Source: a bacterium (GTDB lineage Bacteria > Verrucomicrobiota > Verrucomicrobiia > Limisphaerales > UBA11358). From it: a stretch of 64,000 nt of DNA. Numbering within the stretch: the stretch's first letter is position 1; each line of letters opens with the position of its first letter. Both the position numbers and the translations under genes were made by a program. The notes beneath the pieces were generated by a model. The model made no database searches, was not told where the DNA came from, and saw only the letters and a program-made list of their open reading frames with translations. Positions 19,657 to 50,414 of the stretch are shown here, piece by piece. The stretch spans positions 32,955 through 96,954 of the forward strand of contig JAKAFL010000008.1 of the NCBI GenBank assembly GCA_021817945.1, given 5' to 3'.

Positions 19657-22362
19657 TCAAGCCACCACCACATTGACCAGTTTGCCAGGCAGGATGATTA
19701 TTTTTTTGACGGACTTGCCTTGTATAAAGGGTTGAAGGCCCGGGTGAGCCATGGCTAGATCCTGCAATTGCTGCGGGGGGATGCCCACGGGCACGCGAAT
19801 GACCGCGCGCAATTTTCCATTCACCTGCACGGGGATTTCCACCTCGGACTCCACCAGCAAGGCTGGGTCATAGACCGGCCATGGCGTATAAGGCAGGTCC
19901 ATGGAATGGGCAGCGGTTGGAGCCGGTAATTTTTCCCACAATTCCTCCGCCAGGTGCGGGGCGAAGGGTTGGAGCAATACCAAAAAGTCCCGCATTATGG
20001 ACACGGGCTTAATGTCCCATGTCATGGACTCGTTTGTGAAAACCATGAGAGCGGAAATGGCGGTGTTAAAGCGCAAGGCTTCCAAGTCCTCGGTGACCTT
20101 TTTGATGCAGGCATGCAGGACCTTGGATTGCGCGGGGGCGGGGGGCACATCCCGAATGGAATTATTAAGCCGCACCAAAGCCAGAAGGCCGCCTTTGTCG
20201 CCCGCTGGCGCCAGGGTTTCCGCCTGCTGAAAGGCCGTCTCGCTGGCTTCATCCACAAATAATCTCCAGACCCTGCCCAGAAAGCGATAGACTCCCTCAA
20301 CACCCTTGGTGTTCCATGGCTTGACCATTTCGAGCGGTCCCATGAACATTTCGTACAAGCGAAAGGCATCCGCCCCGTATTCTGCGAGAACCTCGTCAGG
20401 ATTCACCACATTGCCGCGGGATTTGGACATTTTCTGGCCATCCTCACCCAGGATCAGCCCTTGGTTGACAAGTTTTTGAAAAGGTTCTGAACAGGATACA
20501 TAGCCCAGGTCATACAACGCCTTGTGCCAAAAACGCGCATAGAGCAGGTGAAGCACGGCATGTTCAGCACCGCCTATGTAAAGGTCCACTCCGGGCGATT
20601 TTCCACCCATCCAATAGCGTTCGGCCTCTTCACCGGTGAAGCGGGCATGGTTGGCCGCGTCCAAGTAGCGGAGATAATACCAGCAACTGCCCGCCCATTG
20701 GGGCATGGTGTTGGTTTCCCGAACGGAACCATCAGGCTGTCTGACCCACTCTTCAGCCCTCGCCAAAGGAGGTTCACCGCTGGCCGTGGGCTTGTAATCG
20801 GTCAGGTTCGGCGGCAATACCGGCAGACTGCTTTCTGGCAGAGCTTCATGACATCGAACCCCATCCGGAGTCTGCCTCCAAATGATGGGAAATGGCTCGC
20901 CCCAATATCGCTGCCGGCTGAACAGCCAATCGCGTAATTTGTAGTTCACCATCCTTCGGCCGTGGCCATTGTTTTCAAGCCAGGCAGTCATCAATTCCTT
21001 GGCTTTGGCCGTGGCGGCTCCGTCCAAAAAACCGGAATTTACCGCCGTTCCGGGTCCGGTGTAACCCTGCCAATTCAAATCTTTCTCTGCTGGTTGGACT
21101 ACCTGCACCACGGGGAGATGAAATTTCTGGGCAAACTCAAAATCCCGCGTGTCATGAGCAGGCACGGCCATGATGGCGCCGGAGCCATAGCTGGCCAGCA
21201 CGTAATCGGCAATCCAGATTGGGATTTTCTGCTGGTTGACCGGGTTAATCGCCATGGCACCAGTGAAGACCCCGGTTTTTTCCCGGGCTAATTCCGCGCG
21301 CTCAAGGTCCGACTTGGCTGCGGCAAAGGCCTGGTAATCCGCCACGGCTTTTTGCGCTTCATCCGTGGTCAACCGGGACACGAGACGGTGCTCTGGAGAC
21401 AGCACCAGGTATGTCGCGCCGAACAGGGTGTCTGGCCGGGTGGTGAAAACGCGCACTTTTTCACTGGAACCTGCAACGACAAACTCGACCTCCGCGCCTT
21501 CACTGCGTCCGATCCAGTTGCGCTGCATTTCCTTGAGTGAATCACTCCACTGGATGGCATCCAAGTCGGTGAGCAGTCGCTCCGCATAGGCCGTGATCCG
21601 CAACATCCACTGTCGCATGGGCCGCCGCACCACGGGAAACCCGCCCACCTCGCTTTTTCCATCCACCACCTCTTCATTGGCGAGAACCGTGCCCAATTCA
21701 GGGCACCAGTTCACCGGGGCCTCGCTGACATAGGCCAAACGCAACCCTTCCACGTGCTGCCGCCGGGCTGCCTCGGTGGTGCAATCCTTTGGAAAAGGAA
21801 TCGTATCCACCGGTTCGGCGCGTTGTGTGACCGGGTTGAACCATGAATGATAAAGTTTCAGGAAAATCCACTGGGTCCATTTCAAGTAGCCGACATCGGT
21901 GGTGGACAATTCCCGGGTCCAATCATAACTGAAACCCAGGCTGCGGATCTGACGGGTAAAAGTGGAAATATTAGCCTCTGTGGTGACCCGCGGGTGCTGC
22001 CCGGTTTTGACCGCATACTGTTCGGCGGGAAGCCCGAAGGCATCCCAGCCCATGGGATGAAGCACATTGAAGCCGCACGCCCGGCGATAACGGGCCAGGA
22101 TGTCCGTGGCGGTGAAGCCCTCGGGATGTCCCACATGCAAACCGGCGCCGCTGGGGTAGGGAAACATGTCGAGAATGTAATACTTGGGAGGCAGCCGATC
22201 TGCGGACACCTTCCCATTCAAGCCATGGCGCCTGGCAAAGGGATGATCAGCAGGCACGTCGTCGCCGGGATTGAAAGCCCGAAACGATTGGCGCGCCTCC
22301 CACAGACGCTGCCATTTGCCCTCAATCAAATCAAAAGGATACGACCTGCGACCATGCGACAT
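19657..22362 (-). CDS. leuS: Leucyl-tRNA synthetase
   Basis: [28 protein letters not shown] (HIGH-like), [17 protein letters not shown] (KMSKS). Start placed at [22 protein letters not shown]. Confidence 0.96.
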
Positions 22363-42058: not shown

Positions 42059-43690
42059 ATGTGTTTGTTCAAGCTAATCAGGGTTTTAAACAGGGCGTGG
42101 GCATTACTGGTACTGGGGTTGGCGCTAGCTGGTTATACAGCCTTGGCAGGCTCCCCCGCAAACCAAACCGGGACGGTCAATCTGGGCCTGAATCAATTTC
42201 TTCAATTGGTTTTGCATCGGAACGAGGAATTGCAGGCCCAGATGATCGAAACCGAAGTGAGTCACCGCAAGGAAAAGAGCACCCATGGGGCCTTTGAGCC
42301 GCTTCTGGAAGCCTCTGTCCAGCACGTGATCAACCAGCGCACCAATGACGTACAACAACAGGCGGCGCTGTTGGGAGAGCCCTCCTTTTCGGAGCAAAAC
42401 AACCTTTATGACAGCGGGGTGGAATCGCTGCTCCCGACCGGCGCCAAAATCCGCCTTGGCTATTCGCTGAGCGATTTTTACAACAATGCGTCGGCCAGTC
42501 CCCTCGCCGTAACCACCAGCAACTTCACACGTCAATTTGTGACGTTTGTGGGGTTTACTTTCAGCCAACCCCTGCTCAAGGACGGTGGATTTACTCCGAC
42601 CCTGGCGGAGTTGCGATTGGCGGCGATGGATTCCGAAATAGCCTTTCAACAATATAGGCATCAATTGATGCTCACCCTTTCGAGAGCGGAAAGCGCGTAT
42701 TGGAACCTGTATTTTGCCCAGCAACAACTGAAGTTTTTTGACCAATCGGTGGCGGTGGCTGGGGAAGTGCTGGATGACACCCGGGAAAAACTTCTGGCTG
42801 GTCAAGGCTCCGAGCTGGATGTGATGGAATCCCAGTCTGAACTGGCTTTGAGACAAACCAAGCGCAATGAGGCGCTCCAGAGTTATTACGATGCCGTGGG
42901 CTCCATGCAATCCCTTGCCGGCGGGGCCCTTTTCCCATGGTACACAGGGGCCAATCAGCCCACACTAAATGCCACGGATTCGCCGCCGGAAACGAATAGC
43001 GCGGTTTCGTTTTTTGACGCAGCCGAGGGGGCGCTAAGCCTGAACCCCGACTATCTCATCCAACTGCAAAAAATGAAGCAGGAGGAAGTGCGCGTGGGCG
43101 TGGCCAAAAACCAGGTTTTACCCCAACTCGATTTCAAGGGGGCCTACGGGTACAACGGGCTTGGGTTTTCCCCGGGCTCCTCCTGGGAACTTGCGGCTCA
43201 ACAGCAGTATCCGTCCTGGTCGGTGGGTTTGGAATTGATCCTGCCCATGGGTGGCAACATCAAGGCCCGCAATTTGCTTCACGCCCAGGAACTGGGCCTG
43301 CAGGAGGCTTATATGAACCTCAAAAACGTGCAGCAGGAGATTGGGAACCACCTGGCCACCGCCATGCATAAAGTCAGTGGATGGCAGCAAAGCACACTGA
43401 GTTGCCAGACCGTGGTGCATTACAACGAAACACTTTTAAAAACCGAACTGGAACGATTGAAGGCGGGCAGCGTGGATGGCCACAAGGTCCTCGAGGTGGA
43501 GGAAGACCTGCTCGATTCACGCCAGGAACTGGCCAATGCCCAGGTGCAATACGCCTGCTCATGCCTGGAACTGCAAATTGCCAGCGGAACCCTTCTCAAG
43601 GAACACAACATGGATGTGACCCGCAACCAGTTAAAGATTCAAACGGACAATTTCCTGGCTGGCGTCCAGAAGAGCAATTCAACTTTTTGA
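42059..43690 (+). CDS. TolC family outer-membrane channel
   Basis: FLQLVLHRNEELQAQMIETEVSHRKEKSTHGAFEPLLEA; TFSQPLLKDGG; two-repeat TolC architecture. Confidence 0.9.
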   Translation: MCLFKLIRVLNRAWALLVLGLALAGYTALAGSPANQTGTVNLGLNQFLQLVLHRNEELQAQMIETEVSHRKEKSTHGAFEPLLEASVQHVINQRTNDVQQQAALLGEPSFSEQNNLYDSGVESLLPTGAKIRLGYSLSDFYNNASASPLAVTTSNFTRQFVTFVGFTFSQPLLKDGGFTPTLAELRLAAMDSEIAFQQYRHQLMLTLSRAESAYWNLYFAQQQLKFFDQSVAVAGEVLDDTREKLLAGQGSELDVMESQSELALRQTKRNEALQSYYDAVGSMQSLAGGALFPWYTGANQPTLNATDSPPETNSAVSFFDAAEGALSLNPDYLIQLQKMKQEEVRVGVAKNQVLPQLDFKGAYGYNGLGFSPGSSWELAAQQQYPSWSVGLELILPMGGNIKARNLLHAQELGLQEAYMNLKNVQQEIGNHLATAMHKVSGWQQSTLSCQTVVHYNETLLKTELERLKAGSVDGHKVLEVEEDLLDSRQELANAQVQYACSCLELQIASGTLLKEHNMDVTRNQLKIQTDNFLAGVQKSNSTF

Positions 43691-43697
43691 CCTGCAC

Positions 43698-44417
43698 ATG
43701 TCCAAATTTTTCATTTCATTCCTGGTCGCCATCATGGCGGGTCTTCTGCCGCTTGCAGCCCAACCATTGGAGGTTTCGGGCATTACCGAACCTTACATGG
43801 ACGTCACCTTGGGACTGGCTGACCCGGGAATCATCAACGTCCAGCTTTACAAGGAAGGCGACTATGTTCCCAAGGGCAAGGTCATCCTTGAGTTGGATAA
43901 AAACCTTGAGGCCATTGAAGTGGAAAGGCGCAAAGCGGTGATGGATCAGGACCAAATGGTGTATCAATCCACCCTGGAACTTTCGCAAACCACGAAATCT
44001 GTCAGCCACGAGGACCTGACGAAGGCGGAGGCCCAGTACCGGGTTTCCGCCTCGGAATACCAGACGGCTCTTCAACAGTTGGCTGACCGGGCTCTAAAGG
44101 CTCCGTTTTCCGGTGTCATCACCGAGGTGCTGCTCAAACCCGGCGCCGCAGTGGCGCCTTACCAGCCCTTGGTGCGGTTGGTGGACACGACCCGCTGTTT
44201 TTTTGTGGGCCACATGGATGGGCTGGCCGTCTCACGCCTTCATCTGGGGGAAAAGGTAAAAATTGACGTGGATGGCGGATACACAGTGGATGCCCAGATC
44301 AGTTTTATCTCACCCGTGGTGGATGCCGCCAGCGGGTTGGCACGTATCAAAGCGCTCTTCGACAATCCCTCCGGGACCATACGCCCGGGTTTGGCAGCCC
44401 GTTTGGTGGCGGATTAA
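43698..44417 (+). CDS. HlyD/RND-type periplasmic adaptor
   Basis: GIINVQLYKEGDYVPKGKVILELDKNLEAIEVERRKAVMDQ; LKAPFSGVITEVLLKPGAAVAPYQPLVRLVD. Confidence 0.88.
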   Translation: MSKFFISFLVAIMAGLLPLAAQPLEVSGITEPYMDVTLGLADPGIINVQLYKEGDYVPKGKVILELDKNLEAIEVERRKAVMDQDQMVYQSTLELSQTTKSVSHEDLTKAEAQYRVSASEYQTALQQLADRALKAPFSGVITEVLLKPGAAVAPYQPLVRLVDTTRCFFVGHMDGLAVSRLHLGEKVKIDVDGGYTVDAQISFISPVVDAASGLARIKALFDNPSGTIRPGLAARLVAD

Positions 44418-44425
44418 GGCTGTCC

Positions 44426-46261
44426 ATGCATTCAAACATTAATCAAGCCACGGAGGAAATGATGGGCCTGCGGCAGTTTGCCGGTCCGGCCCGGGATTTC
44501 TGGCCTCGTTACGTGGCTGCAGCGGCACAACTGGCCGGGGCCGATGCGACCGTGTTGATGCTGGGCCAGCCAGGAAAGGAACCTCGCTGGACCAGGATTG
44601 CGGATTGGGAGGCGGGCACAGGCCTGTCACGCCTTCGCACCCAATTCACCTCCCGCCTCCCGGATTTTGCCGGGAAATGTGTTGAAAAGGGCAGTTTCAT
44701 GGAATGCACCGATGCCAGCGCAGGGGCCTTTGTCCTGGCGCTGCGGCTTGCCCTGGTCAATCCGTCGGACGAAGTGGTGCTCGCGGTGCAGCTCAAGGAT
44801 TTTACAGAATCTGCCGCCCGGGAATCTTATCTCCGGCTTTCCCTGGTCATGGATGTGCCATCAGCCTACCAGCAAAACCTGTCATTTCAAAAAAGCCGCC
44901 AGGACGTGGAAAAATTTGCGGCGGTTTTGGATTTGAATGTGCCGGTGAATGATGCGACGCGTTTCATTCCTGCCGCGCTGGCTGTCTGCAATGGCATAGC
45001 CACCCGGTTTCGCTGCGACCGTGCCAGCCTGGGCTGGCTGGAAGGAGGGTATGTTCGCTTGCGGGCCATGAGCCGGACAGAACAATTTGACCGCCAGATG
45101 GCTGCCGCCCAAGCCATGGAAACCGCCATGGAAGAATGTGTGGACCAGGACGAGGAAATTGTGTGGCCCGAATCAGCGGAAGCCGCCAGTGTGTCTCGGG
45201 ACCACGAGGCTTTTGCCATGGACCAGAAATCCGGCCATGTTTGTTCGCTGCCATGGCGGCTGGATGACAAGGTGGTGGCCGTGTTGCTATGCGAACGGCG
45301 GGATCAACCTTTTACCCAGCCTGAAATCCAGCAACTTCGGCTTGCCAGTGACCAGGTGGTTCGGCGCATGGCTGATTTGCACTCGCGTGACCTGTGGTTT
45401 GGCGCCCGATGGAAAGCTGGATTGGAGGAACGACTTCCCCAATGGCTTGGACCGGGCCATGCCTGGAGCAAAGTGGGGGCCATCCTGGGCGTGCTGGTCC
45501 TGGCTGGCCTGATCTTCATCCGGGTTACCTACCGCGTGGGCGGCAACTTCATTCTCCGCAGCGACCAGGCAGAATTCCTGACGGCGCCATTTGACGGTTA
45601 CATCCGGGAAGTTTATGTGAGGGCGGGAGACCCGGTTGTCCGCGGGCAGCCTCTTGTGATGCTGAACCAGGATGAATTGTTGCTGGACCAGGCGGCCGCC
45701 GCAGCGGATGTTTCCCGCTACGAAAGGCAGGCGGAAAAAGACCGCGCTGCCGATGACATGGCACAAATGCGGATTGACCAAGCCCAGGCCCGACAGGCAC
45801 AGGCTCAATTGGATCTTGTTCACTTTCGTCTGGATCATTCCGTGCTTCGCGCCGGGCTCGATGGAGTGGTCATAGAAGGAGACCTCAGGGAACGAATAGG
45901 ATCGCCCGTCAAACAGGGGGACGCGCTTTTACGGGTCACACGATTGGACACTCTTTATGCGCAGGCGGAGATACCGGAGTCCGATATCCATGAAATCGCC
46001 ATCGGCGCCAGCGGGCAGATTGCCTTTGTGACACTGCCCAAAACCAGGTTTCCGGTATCCATTCGCACGGTGGAACCGGCTGCGGTGCCGCAAAAGGATG
46101 GCAGCGTTTTTCTGGTGCGGCTGGAACCGCAAAACAGGACGCCTGACTGGTGGCGCCCGGGCATGACCGGCCTTTGCAAATTGGAATCCGGCAAGCGTTC
46201 ACTGATCTGGATACTGACCCATCGGACGGTGGATTTTCTGCGCATGAAATTATGGTGGTAA
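44426..46261 (+). CDS. GAF-like sensor domain fused via TM to HlyD-type adaptor
   Basis: N-terminal FIPAALAVCNGIATRFRCDRASLGWLEGGYVRLRAMS (GAF-like), TM ILGVLVLAGLIFI, then FDGYIREVYVRAGDPVVRGQPLVMLNQDELLLDQ...LDGVVIEGDLRERIGSPVKQGDALLRV. Confidence 0.82.
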   Translation: MHSNINQATEEMMGLRQFAGPARDFWPRYVAAAAQLAGADATVLMLGQPGKEPRWTRIADWEAGTGLSRLRTQFTSRLPDFAGKCVEKGSFMECTDASAGAFVLALRLALVNPSDEVVLAVQLKDFTESAARESYLRLSLVMDVPSAYQQNLSFQKSRQDVEKFAAVLDLNVPVNDATRFIPAALAVCNGIATRFRCDRASLGWLEGGYVRLRAMSRTEQFDRQMAAAQAMETAMEECVDQDEEIVWPESAEAASVSRDHEAFAMDQKSGHVCSLPWRLDDKVVAVLLCERRDQPFTQPEIQQLRLASDQVVRRMADLHSRDLWFGARWKAGLEERLPQWLGPGHAWSKVGAILGVLVLAGLIFIRVTYRVGGNFILRSDQAEFLTAPFDGYIREVYVRAGDPVVRGQPLVMLNQDELLLDQAAAAADVSRYERQAEKDRAADDMAQMRIDQAQARQAQAQLDLVHFRLDHSVLRAGLDGVVIEGDLRERIGSPVKQGDALLRVTRLDTLYAQAEIPESDIHEIAIGASGQIAFVTLPKTRFPVSIRTVEPAAVPQKDGSVFLVRLEPQNRTPDWWRPGMTGLCKLESGKRSLIWILTHRTVDFLRMKLWW

Positions 46262-46262
46262 C

Positions 46263-48422
46263 ATGACGGGGATACCGCGCACATTCAGTGAATCCTGGTA
46301 CCGCGTGGCTGGCCAGAAAATCTGCCTGCGCCCGGCGGTGCGGGTTCGGCGCCAGAATTTCCGCGGAGAACGGTGGATTATCCTCGAAAACCCCTTCAGC
46401 AACCAATATTTCCGGCTGCGTCCAGCGGCGTATGAATTTGTGGCCCGCCTGCGCGCGGACGGGACCGTGGAGCAGGCCTGGCAGGAATGCCTGGACCGGT
46501 TTCCAGATGCGGCGCCCAGCCAGGAGGACGCCATTCAGTTGCTGGCACAGCTTTATTTTGCCAATCTTTTGCAATACGACCTGGCGGCGGACAGCGCCCA
46601 ATTATTCGAAAGGTACAAATCCCGCCGCCAGCGTGAATTGGGTTTTAGTTTCCTGAACATCATGTTCATGAGGTTTCCGTTGCTGGACCCGGACCGTTTT
46701 CTTGTCCGAACGCTCCGGGCATTGCGGTGGTTGATCAGCCCTTGGGGTGCGGCGCTTTGGTTGCTGGTGGTTGGGTTTGGTTTGCAATGCGCCCTGTCCA
46801 ACGCGGGCGCCCTTCGGGCGCAGGGCGAAGGCATCCTCAACCCGGGCAATTTGGCGCTGCTTTACCTTGGGGTGATCCTGGTCAAGACCCTCCACGAATT
46901 CGGCCATGCATACTTCTGCCGCAGGTTTGGCGGCGAAGTGCACATCATGGGGGTGATGTTGATGATTTTCACTCCCATGCCTTACGTGGATGCCACCTCC
47001 TCCTGGAGTTTTCGGGAAAGGTGGAAACGCGCGCTTGTGGGGATGGCGGGAATGATCACGGAAATTTTCTTTGCGGCCATTGCCGCAGTCGTCTGGTCCC
47101 GGACAGGTCCAGGCGCGGTCCATAGCCTGGCCTACAACATCATGTTTGTGGCCTCGGTATCCACGCTTCTCTTCAACATCAATCCCCTGATGCGTTTTGA
47201 TGGATATTACATTTTATCGGACCTGCTTGAAATTCCAAACCTGAACCAACGATCCCAACTCCAGCTTCAGGCCTGGTGCGAGCGGTTTCTATTTGGAATA
47301 AAGAACCCATCTGCGCCAGCAGGAAGCAGGAGGGAGGCTGCGTGGCTCGGCGTCTTTGGGGTGGCCAGCGGCATTTATCGCGTGGTTGTTTTCACGGGGA
47401 TCCTCCTGGTGGTTGCAGACCGGTTTTTGATCGTCGGCTTGGTCATGGCGGCCTTTTGCCTGGTTTCATGGACCTTCATGCCCCTGTTCAAATTGACGCG
47501 GTACCTGGCCTTCAACCCTCGTCTGGAGCGGGTTCGCGCCCGGGCCATCGGGGTGTCGCTGGGCTTGTTTTCCTGTCTCCTTGTCCTTCTGGCAGTGGTT
47601 CCATTTCCCCATTCCCTTCGCGCCCCGGGTATCGTGAAGGCCACCCAGCGGACGGACACAGTCAATGAGGCGCCGGGCAGGGTGGTTCTGCTCTGCGCTG
47701 AACCCGGCGCCTGGGTTCTCCAGGGCCAACCCCTCCTGGTTCTCACCAACCCGGAATTGACCCTCGCCATTTCAAATACCCGGGCACACCTCGACGAAAT
47801 CAACGCCCGTCTGCGACTGGCTCAGGATGAGGATCCAGCGGATATTCAACCTTTGTCCCAATTGCATGATTCGGTTTCCTTCCAAATCCAAAAATTGCTT
47901 AAAGACCAGGAACATCTCATGGTAAAGGCCCGTCACGACGGCTTCTGGATTGCCCCCTCTCTTTCTGATTTTTCCGGCCGGTGGCTCCCTCAGGGCACGG
48001 AGTTGGGTCTTTTGGTCAATCCCGCTCATTTTGAGTTTCATGCCATCGTGGCTGAAGATGATGCCAAGGCATTGTTTGGAGCCCCGCTTCATCGTGCCAG
48101 TGTGAGACTGGCTGGCCAGGCAGATCAAAAATTGGCCGTCGGCTCCTGGAAAGTCATTCCCGGGGGGCAAAATATTCTGCCTTCCCCGGCCTTGGGTTGG
48201 GCGGGGGGTGGAGATGTGCCTGTCAGCACCCAGGAAAATCCCCAAGGCGATAAATCGGCGGAGCCTTTCTTTGAAGTCATCGCCGGGTTGAATCCCGGAG
48301 GTTCCCGCCAGGTCATGGATGGTCGTTCGGGGAAAATATCCTTTCAACTGGCGCCCGAACCCCTGCTGCCGCGCTGGACCCGGAGCCTGTGGCAGTTGTT
48401 ACAGAAGCGATACGAGTTGTGA
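46263..48422 (+). CDS. Site-2 protease (M50) with PqqD-like N-terminus and HlyD-like C-terminus
   Basis: PqqD-like LRPAVRVRRQNFRGERWIILENPFSNQYFRLRPAAYEFVARLRADGTVEQAW; HExxH in LHEFGHAYFCRRFGG; second-metal motif NINPLMRFDGYYILSDL; C-terminal APGRVVLLCAEPGAWVLQGQPLLVLTNPE. Confidence 0.88.
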   Translation: MTGIPRTFSESWYRVAGQKICLRPAVRVRRQNFRGERWIILENPFSNQYFRLRPAAYEFVARLRADGTVEQAWQECLDRFPDAAPSQEDAIQLLAQLYFANLLQYDLAADSAQLFERYKSRRQRELGFSFLNIMFMRFPLLDPDRFLVRTLRALRWLISPWGAALWLLVVGFGLQCALSNAGALRAQGEGILNPGNLALLYLGVILVKTLHEFGHAYFCRRFGGEVHIMGVMLMIFTPMPYVDATSSWSFRERWKRALVGMAGMITEIFFAAIAAVVWSRTGPGAVHSLAYNIMFVASVSTLLFNINPLMRFDGYYILSDLLEIPNLNQRSQLQLQAWCERFLFGIKNPSAPAGSRREAAWLGVFGVASGIYRVVVFTGILLVVADRFLIVGLVMAAFCLVSWTFMPLFKLTRYLAFNPRLERVRARAIGVSLGLFSCLLVLLAVVPFPHSLRAPGIVKATQRTDTVNEAPGRVVLLCAEPGAWVLQGQPLLVLTNPELTLAISNTRAHLDEINARLRLAQDEDPADIQPLSQLHDSVSFQIQKLLKDQEHLMVKARHDGFWIAPSLSDFSGRWLPQGTELGLLVNPAHFEFHAIVAEDDAKALFGAPLHRASVRLAGQADQKLAVGSWKVIPGGQNILPSPALGWAGGGDVPVSTQENPQGDKSAEPFFEVIAGLNPGGSRQVMDGRSGKISFQLAPEPLLPRWTRSLWQLLQKRYEL

Positions 48423-48425
48423 GCC

Positions 48426-50414
48426 ATGCTGGAAATTCCCACCCAGGATTACCGGCGCAGTCATTTCCGGGGAGCGCCTTCGCCCCCGAGGGGATTGGAT
48501 GCTGCAGTCAACCGCGCCCTGGGCCGTTTCAAGCGACGCTCCTTCGTGCTCAATAAAATCCGTGACCAAGCATGGCAGGCGCTGGGGTTGGAATCGGAAA
48601 TGGCGGCGTTGACAGATGCGGCGTTGCGCAAACGACTCCTGGAAAGCCGGGAAACCTTTCGACGCAGGGGAATGGTCGGCGAGGTGAATCTGCTTTCCGC
48701 GCTGGCAGCCATGCGCGAGGCATCGGACCGGGTACTGGGACTGCGTCCGTTCCCGGTGCAACTCATGGGGGCACTCACCCTGCATCGCGGCTGCCTGGCT
48801 GAAATGGCCACCGGCGAGGGAAAGACCCTCACGGCCGGACTGGCTGCGGTCCTGATGGGTTGGACACGGCTGCCGTGCCATGTGATCACGGTGAATGATT
48901 ACCTTGTCCAGCGGGATGCACGCTGGCTGGAGCCATTTTATCATTATTGCGGCATACGCGTGGGTTACGTGGACGCATCACAAGGGCCGGCTGAACGTTT
49001 GAAAAACTACGGCTGCGATGTGACCTATGTCACCAGCAAGGAGCTGCTGGCGGATTTTCTTCGGGACCGGCTTGCCTTTGGGAAAATGCAGCACCCCACG
49101 CGCCGCCTGATCCGGCACATGCTCATGCCCAAACAACGTGCGGATGGCTTGGTATTGCGGGGGTTGCACTCTGCGATTGTGGACGAAGCGGACAGCATCT
49201 TGATTGATGAGGCTGTCACTCCGCTCATCATTGCTGCGCCCCATGAGAATCCGTGCCTTCGTGAAGCCACGCGCCTGGCGCGGGATTTGGCGCAAAACCT
49301 CCAAAGTGGCAGGGATTACCAGGCGGATCCCCGGCACAAGGAAATTGAACTGACCCGCGAGGGGACTGGAAAGCTGGTCGAGGAAGCTTCAAGGCTGCCG
49401 GGGTTGTGGAAAGGCCGGGACCGCAGGCTGGAACTGGTGGTTCAGGCTCTGGTGGCGCGGGAGTTTTTTCATTGCGGCAGCCAGTACATTATTGAGAACA
49501 ACCAAGTGGTGATCGTGGATGAATTCACGGGCCGACCCATGCCCCAGCGAACCTGGCGCGAGGGCATGCATCAAGCCATTGAAGCCAAGGAAAATCTGTC
49601 CATTACCGACCCTTCTGAAACCATTGCCCGCCTGAGTTTTCAACGCTTTTTCCGTTGTTTCGAGCGGCTGGCTGGCATGACGGGCACCGCAAGCGAGGCT
49701 GCCGATGAGTTTTGGCATATTTATGGCCTTGCCACCCTGCGTATCCCGCCTAATCGCCCCTGTATCCGGCAGCACTGGCCCGACCGCTATTTCCGTGATG
49801 AAAAGAGCAAGGTTGCGGCGGCTCTTTTGGAAATTGAACGCCTCCACGGCATTGGCAGACCCGTGCTGGTGGGAACCCGCAGCGTGAATGCCAGCGAACA
49901 ACTTTGGAAAGCACTGACGGATCGCGGCCACCAGGCCAGGCTCTTGAATGCCGCCAGGCTCGATGAGGAAGCTGCAACGGTGGCCCTGGCGGGCGAACGG
50001 GGACGCATCACTATCGCAACCAATATGGCTGGCCGGGGAACCGATATCAAACTGGGTTCGGGAGTTGCCGACCTGGGAGGCTTGCATGTTCTGGCCTTGG
50101 AACGGTTTGAATCTGGACGGGTTGACCGACAGTTGTATGGCAGGTCCGCCCGCCAGGGTGACCCCGGTACCGCTCAGGCTTTTGTGAGCGCTGAGGATGA
50201 ATTACCGCGCAAATACCTGAATCCCACTCTTCGTGGCCTTTTTCAGGGAATGTGCCAATCCAATGTTCCTGGTTCCCTCCATGTTTGCTCGTTTCTTATT
50301 CATCATGCGCAAGCCAAGGCGCAGAATGCCGCCTTCAAACAAAGGCAGGATGTCATGCGCGCCGATGTGTGGATGGACCAGGCTTTGTCCTTTGCCGGCA
50401 ACCCTTTCGGTTGA
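48426..50414 (+). CDS. SecA-like ATPase, truncated after start of helical scaffold domain
   Basis: Walker A MATGEGKTL, HVITVNDYLVQRDARWLEPFYHYCGI, AIVDEADSILIDEA, MTGTASEAADEF, ITIATNMAGRGTDIKLG, GRSARQGDPG; ends shortly after AQNAAFKQRQDVMRADVWMDQ. Confidence 0.93.
   Translation: MLEIPTQDYRRSHFRGAPSPPRGLDAAVNRALGRFKRRSFVLNKIRDQAWQALGLESEMAALTDAALRKRLLESRETFRRRGMVGEVNLLSALAAMREASDRVLGLRPFPVQLMGALTLHRGCLAEMATGEGKTLTAGLAAVLMGWTRLPCHVITVNDYLVQRDARWLEPFYHYCGIRVGYVDASQGPAERLKNYGCDVTYVTSKELLADFLRDRLAFGKMQHPTRRLIRHMLMPKQRADGLVLRGLHSAIVDEADSILIDEAVTPLIIAAPHENPCLREATRLARDLAQNLQSGRDYQADPRHKEIELTREGTGKLVEEASRLPGLWKGRDRRLELVVQALVAREFFHCGSQYIIENNQVVIVDEFTGRPMPQRTWREGMHQAIEAKENLSITDPSETIARLSFQRFFRCFERLAGMTGTASEAADEFWHIYGLATLRIPPNRPCIRQHWPDRYFRDEKSKVAAALLEIERLHGIGRPVLVGTRSVNASEQLWKALTDRGHQARLLNAARLDEEAATVALAGERGRITIATNMAGRGTDIKLGSGVADLGGLHVLALERFESGRVDRQLYGRSARQGDPGTAQAFVSAEDELPRKYLNPTLRGLFQGMCQSNVPGSLHVCSFLIHHAQAKAQNAAFKQRQDVMRADVWMDQALSFAGNPFG

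Follow-up and report, generated by a model that had tools for sequence, protein, structure and literature searches.

Loci in which a secondary SecA-type protein, with SecA_DEAD and without SecA_SW, lies beside genes for M50-HlyD, GAF-HlyD and HlyD proteins, and sometimes OEP, have been described in five phyla, Verrucomicrobia included (Kamneva, Poudel & Ward, 2015; PMC4452313). The authors proposed that SecA contributes ATPase activity, M50 the pore and GAF the regulation, and they reported low expression of most of the genes in Methylobacterium extorquens; a cargo, a tag or a PqqD-like domain is not named in their study. Here, we analyzed a locus of this type, a five-gene operon at positions 42059-50414 of a 64,000-nucleotide (nt) stretch (hereafter the window) from a Limisphaerales bacterium of the phylum Verrucomicrobiota (UBA11358; GenBank assembly GCA_021817945.1, contig JAKAFL010000008.1, positions 32,955 to 96,954). 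The operon probably encodes a secretion system that spans the envelope and is dedicated to very large proteins, either surface-bound or extracellular, with an N-terminal LEPR-XLL tag.

The window locus contains a second SecA_DEAD protein without SecA_SW, distinct from the canonical SecA, together with an adjacent M50+HlyD gene, an adjacent GAF+HlyD gene, an extra HlyD gene and OEP/TolC. It is thus like the loci of 2015 in its protein set, in the loss of SecA_SW and in the functional guess attached to it. A first, sequence-only reading of the window had taken this composition to be undescribed. Since PMC4452313 contains both the same composition and the same division of labor, this claim is ruled out with regard to novelty, but not with regard to function. 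No follow-up to PMC4452313 and no link between LEPR-XLL and SecA was found in the open-access literature. The gene set is already known; its new and testable part is the link to a cargo and a tag, proposed with statistics only in the present analysis.

Type I secretion (HlyB-HlyD-TolC) has HlyD adaptors and a TolC channel in common with the window's system, for which we also propose giant repeat cargo and one-step export. However, type I systems use an ABC transporter and a C-terminal signal, whereas the window encodes a SecA-like ATPase and an M50 protein, and the proposed signal is an N-terminal tag. Accessory Sec systems (SecA2 or SecA2-SecY2) have an extra SecA paralogue, as the window does, and SecA2-SecY2 exports large repeat adhesins; the window's system differs in lacking SecY2, in its truncated SecA and in the two membranes to be crossed with TolC. 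The daptide and YydH-LiaK M50 metalloproteases (NF041824, NF058609) combine an N-terminal leader-reading domain with M50, as does the M50 protein of the window, whose PqqD+M50 part is closest to NF041824 (residues 22-406, E 7e-54, 183.4 bits, under the family cut-off of 300 bits). In contrast to these proteases, it is fused to an HlyD adaptor, and no precursor of a ribosomally synthesized and post-translationally modified peptide (RiPP) was found. LEPR-XLL proteins (NF012209) are matched by a giant protein of the window's own genome and by operon neighbors elsewhere; a role of the motif as an export tag is proposed only here.

The SecA-like gene was present in nine of 40 relatives from the same order of bacteria, and eight of these nine have the identical five-gene order. 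An M50-HlyD profile scan of GTDB genomes yielded 80 loci from Verrucomicrobiota, Lentisphaerota, Planctomycetota, Nitrospirota, Desulfuromonadales/Desulfobacterales, Omnitrophota and Pseudomonadota. GAF-HlyD lies directly upstream of M50-HlyD in all 77 loci with enough flanking sequence, the SecA-like gene directly downstream in 63 of 67, and TolC and HlyD are close by in 51 of 53. The best named match is a Limisphaerales metagenome-assembled genome (MAG; 99% identity), and the close loci belong to Verrucomicrobia subdivision 3. Recurrence of the same gene order across relatives and phyla argues against a chance arrangement, and judged by this order the five-gene cluster is a conserved unit; the set co-occurs both in the same-order relatives and in nearly all of the 80 loci. 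No ABC transporter was found in the operon or as a conserved neighbor in the loci examined (unlinked ones elsewhere in the genome were not searched for), and the earlier statement that an ABC, RND or MFS pump is missing holds, as none belongs to the conserved unit.

When non-core neighbors were clustered, one cluster stood out, comprising very long open reading frames (ORFs) at 18 loci. Most of the long neighbor ORFs begin with F-E-L-E-x-L-E-P-R-[IVL]-L-L-S (full tag: F-E-L-E-x-L-E-P-R-[IVL]-L-L-S-A-D), and this N-terminal motif of the giants is NCBIfam LEPR-XLL, NF012209 (LEPR-8K). At least nine of 53 loci with room for it have a tagged ORF immediately after SecA, in the same orientation; in one locus (L118) the tagged giant is divergent and stands beside GAF-HlyD. 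On a further contig of 13.8 kb (L033, 2-8926) the SecA-like gene and a tagged giant adjoin, and M50, GAF, HlyD and TolC are all absent, i.e., the operon is split. Over 51 proteins, the E and R of the tag consensus are near-invariant. In the tagged ORFs examined, the tag is usually found about 7-16 residues from the start, behind a polar, often basic stretch, and no signal-peptide-like hydrophobic core was present. The window's genome contains one giant ORF (5,748 amino acids, aa; contig C71) with FELEALEPRVLLSAD, which has no Cys, 34 Lys and 26 Arg. It scores 30.9 bits with NF012209 (cut-off 17), and Pfam detected no domain in it; a plasmid protein search with its N-terminus gave no useful match, the tag being too short for BLAST. 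As a separate observation, many tagged giants (e.g., L069, L079, L145, L146) share a second N-terminal element, Y-x-P-x-x-x-[IL]-F-x-[GA]-[LIVM], about 50-80 residues past the tag, which may be part of the signal.

Co-occurrence of tag and system was counted per genome, without full phylogenetic correction. Among 388 genomes of the Verrucomicrobiota phylum, the strict tag is found in 13 of 24 genomes with the system and in three of 364 others (p=2e-15), where the matches are chance-like, two of the three carrying Ser instead of Arg. The association persists when stratified within families (p=3e-6), and with a relaxed pattern N-terminal variants of the tag also turn up in G314 and G332, two further genomes with the system. 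Genomes with only distant M50-HlyD relatives are without the tag, which ties it to this particular branch rather than to M50-HlyD proteins as a whole. In a sample of 198 genomes from a second phylum, both independent system genomes contain tagged giants, and 195 others gave no curated match; the three other matches are internal or in short or no frames, and p is 5e-4 even if they are included. For Planctomycetota with any close M50-HlyD, the tag occurs in 7 of 34 genomes vs. 2 of 154 (p=1e-4). The tag is also present in 12 of 25 system genomes that were identified via their loci, almost all of these 25 belonging to phyla other than Verrucomicrobiota.

Annotated alphaproteobacterial plasmids lend independent support, 12 of them carrying a SecA-type locus. 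A tagged giant gene lies directly upstream in 11 of the 11 loci with readable upstream sequence: Methylosinus (8,847 aa), Alisedimentitalea (8,148 aa), Pontibrevibacter (10,603 aa), Mesorhizobium (10,518 aa), Pseudosulfitobacter (12,918 aa), and further Ensifer, Sinorhizobium, two Rhizobium, Rhodobacteraceae M382 and Pseudohalocynthiibacter. NCBI annotates the giants of Pontibrevibacter and Pseudosulfitobacter as ‘LEPR-XLL domain-containing protein’; in M382 and R. beringeri the reading frame of the giant is disrupted. Given this statistical and positional link, the LEPR-tagged giants are the probable cargo, well backed at the genomic level, and proteins of thousands of residues are a more likely cargo than the peptide assumed in the sequence-only reading. 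Some of the largest known proteins come from bacteria belonging to many phyla, and in the literature searched the LEPR-XLL motif has no assigned function and the proteins bearing it no assigned export route. The predicted secretion system of 2015 without a cargo and the tag without a function appear as halves of one pathway. If true, this would be a secretion route of Gram-negatives driven by a SecA paralogue, whose cargo could be listed from sequence alone by means of the tag; the cargo lead makes the job of the system directly testable.

With respect to the putative motor, the SecA-like protein contains SecA_DEAD, PP_bind and P-loop_SecA domains and aligns only to residues 27-604 of SecA (~780 residues). 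SecA_SW is absent from 45 of 46 SecA-like relatives, while the Walker A, DEAD and R573/R576 motifs show no variation among the 46 proteins. In a tree, secondary and canonical SecAs are split by one branch with a support of 100/100. The sequence-only reading had allowed for the SecA-like protein being the sole housekeeping SecA; this is ruled out by a canonical SecA of 1062 aa on a separate contig (C14) of the same genome (3.75 Mb, 99 contigs). The one in the operon is a paralogue distinct from the housekeeping SecA. The genome has a single SecY (G000:C52) and no dedicated SecY2. The SecA-like protein is misannotated in public databases, as ‘prepilin peptidase’ (L221:17204-19120, L231:18065-20089) or elsewhere as ‘DEAD/DEAH box helicase’, which conceals the system.

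The remaining parts of the operon agree largely with what had been read from the sequence. ORF coordinates confirm five co-directional genes with intergenic gaps of 7, 8, 1 and 3 nt, and Pfam and NCBIfam return the same identities in the order TolC, short HlyD, GAF-HlyD, PqqD-like+M50+HlyD and SecA-like ATPase (Table 1). A TolC homolog takes the same position in all eight relatives with an intact operon (35-53% identity). The AlphaFold model of the third protein (pLDDT 90) comprises two GAF-like domains, one transmembrane (TM) helix and a MacA-like domain (Foldseek MacA, 2e-14), and Pfam detects GAF in 51 of 52 relatives. The sequence-only reading had a GAF domain joined via a TM helix to an adaptor, but the model shows two such domains instead of one. 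In the model of the M50 protein (pLDDT 84), a PqqD-like fold at the N-terminus is accompanied by a membrane part of several helices and a domain resembling MacA/MexA. In this protein, the PqqD-like domain noted earlier scores 20.1 bits, short of the 23.4 bits that Pfam requires; 15 of 49 relatives do match PqqD, and the modeled N-terminus consists of three strands and three helices, as expected of that family. The assignment is based on this order of secondary structures and on weak Pfam matches in relatives, without a Foldseek hit. The HEFGH and NPLMRFDG motifs already pointed out are intact, and the zinc ligands H211, H215 and D313 and the catalytic E212 do not vary among 49 M50 proteins.

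Table 1. Features of the operon, given in window coordinates (RRE, RiPP recognition element).
Feature	Position	Strand	Evidence
TolC-family outer-membrane channel, 543 aa	42059..43690	+	Pfam OEP 2.7e-32
Short HlyD/RND-type periplasmic adaptor, 239 aa	43698..44417	+	Pfam HlyD_3 1.1e-14; TIGR01730 119 bits (cut-off 94.9)
GAF-GAF-TM-HlyD adaptor, 611 aa	44426..46261	+	Pfam GAF 8e-6 (residues 187-312), HlyD_D23 1.8e-19
Two cytoplasmic GAF-like domains, residues about 20-140 and 180-320	44483..45385	+	AlphaFold model; Pfam
PqqD-like/RRE + M50 site-2 protease + HlyD fusion, 719 aa	46263..48422	+	Pfam, NCBIfam, model, Foldseek
PqqD-like (RRE) domain, residues about 20-105, candidate LEPR-tag reader	46320..46577	+	Pfam in relatives; model
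HEFGH zinc site of M50 protease, residues 211-215	46893..46907	+	H211, E212, H215 invariant in 49 relatives
NPLMRFDG motif, residues 307-314, third zinc ligand D313	47181..47204	+	D313 invariant in 49 relatives
C-terminal HlyD-like adaptor domain of M50 protein	47601..48359	+	Foldseek MacA/MexA, best E 2.5e-12
Secondary SecA-like ATPase, 662 aa, without wing/scaffold domain	48426..50414	+	SecA_DEAD 4.9e-93
Walker A TGEGKT	48810..48827	+	T129-K133 invariant in 46 relatives
DEAD motif	49182..49193	+	Invariant in 46 relatives

The boldest interpretation, to which we give somewhat less than even odds, is a one-step, SecY-independent route. Here, a truncated SecA would push proteins as long as ~13,000 residues through an M50-HlyD-based channel into TolC; the N-terminal LEPR-XLL motif would be the signal, which the PqqD-like domain would read and the intramembrane protease would cut. 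Azospirillum and E. coli plasmids have a sister branch that lacks SecA, with an LExRxLFDGA tag and DUF4347. In the model that we consider probable, the unfolded giant would first be recognized at its initial ~25 residues, with the cytoplasmic PqqD-like domain of the M50 protein as the likeliest reader. Leader recognition and cleavage are established for RiPP-maturation families, and the fusion of a PqqD-like domain to a daptide-type M50 protease suggests the same two activities here. We lean toward the M50 protein as reader of the tag, its binding being a prediction, and consider it an even call that its active site also cuts the tag. The SecA-like ATPase, which retains the nucleotide-binding and preprotein-binding domains, is likely the motor at the window locus and would thread the chain into an inner-membrane assembly of the M50 and the membrane-anchored GAF-HlyD proteins, with M50 forming the path and the GAF domains possibly exerting control. 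The HlyD domains of the M50 protein, the GAF protein and the short adaptor would then jointly dock on TolC for exit in one step, and the tag may be removed by the M50 site. That SecY plays no part in this is an assumption we somewhat favor.

Several observations weigh against this proposal. In the window's genome the giant and the operon are unlinked, lying on different contigs, and the tag was not found in the 64-kb window. The strict tag is missing in 11 of the 24 system genomes of the Verrucomicrobiota sample (two of them with variants). For Planctomycetota the link is weaker: of 13 strong system genomes, 4 have the tag, compared with 5 of 175 (p=0.0015). The LExRRLLA-type N-termini, which are abundant in planctomycetes, show no link to the system (p=0.22); they were rejected as the same tag and may serve a different pathway. 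Close sister loci exist without an adjacent SecA: Thalassospira has a tagged giant with GAF-HlyD and M50-HlyD, and in three further operon copies (L073, L090, L099) the SecA-like gene is not beside the M50 gene. Finally, in Azospirillum and E. coli plasmids, a giant gene with the N-terminus ALEPRFMFDAAGA or ALESRQLFDGAALA is accompanied by a more distant TolC-HlyD-HlyD-M50-HlyD set that lacks SecA. Considering these SecA-less sister sets, SecA may not be the universal motor; it may have joined an older unit consisting of the M50-HlyD/TolC core and a tagged giant.

Among other explanations, export in two steps fares best, yet we consider it unlikely. Here, the SecA-like protein would use the ordinary SecYEG, forming a Gram-negative SecA2-only system, and M50, HlyD and TolC would carry the giants from the periplasm outward. 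Gram-positive SecA2-only systems do use the canonical channel, the preprotein-binding domain is retained, and the one SecY of the genome is available for sharing. However, the C-terminal part of SecA with the wing and the two-helix finger is missing, the tag has no hydrophobic core, and the M50 and GAF proteins themselves bridge the inner membrane. Less probable still is export of a small molecule or peptide, as by other HlyD/TolC units and as the sequence-only reading supposed; the giants would then just happen to be common in bacteria that have the cluster. The adaptors are indeed RND-like and PqqD/M50 resemble peptide-maturation proteins, but no conserved small peptide ORF emerged among the locus neighbors (≥40 aa screened), so that a peptide cargo encoded nearby was rejected, and the giants are the top non-core cluster, co-occur with the system within families and adjoin it in all 11 readable plasmid loci. 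In a third explanation, about as improbable, the M50 and SecA-like proteins would be quality-control or tag-processing factors and the giants would leave by another route, e.g., a separate ABC type I exporter, which the fusion of M50 to a PqqD-like domain and the loci without SecA would permit, but TolC and HlyD accompany the operon in 51 of 53 loci and no ABC exporter is a conserved neighbor.

Some additional observations concern related loci. The E. coli IncF plasmid NZ_CP081687.1 (44829-64580; L247, L249) encodes a 4,459-aa Ig-like/DUF4347-like giant; the genes after it are TolC, two HlyD and a distant M50-HlyD, SecA being absent from this sister system, and similar matches occur on Citrobacter and other E. 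coli plasmids. An Azospirillaceae MAG (L120:14367-19065) carries a second, divergent M50-HlyD/adaptor set, inverted beside the SecA-type operon, with a LEPRYMFDAAGA-type ORF at 21564. In Alphaproteobacteria, a small DUF3467 protein is encoded between the giant gene and the adaptor/M50 genes (L221, L223, L224, L232, L236), possibly a chaperone or an extra component.

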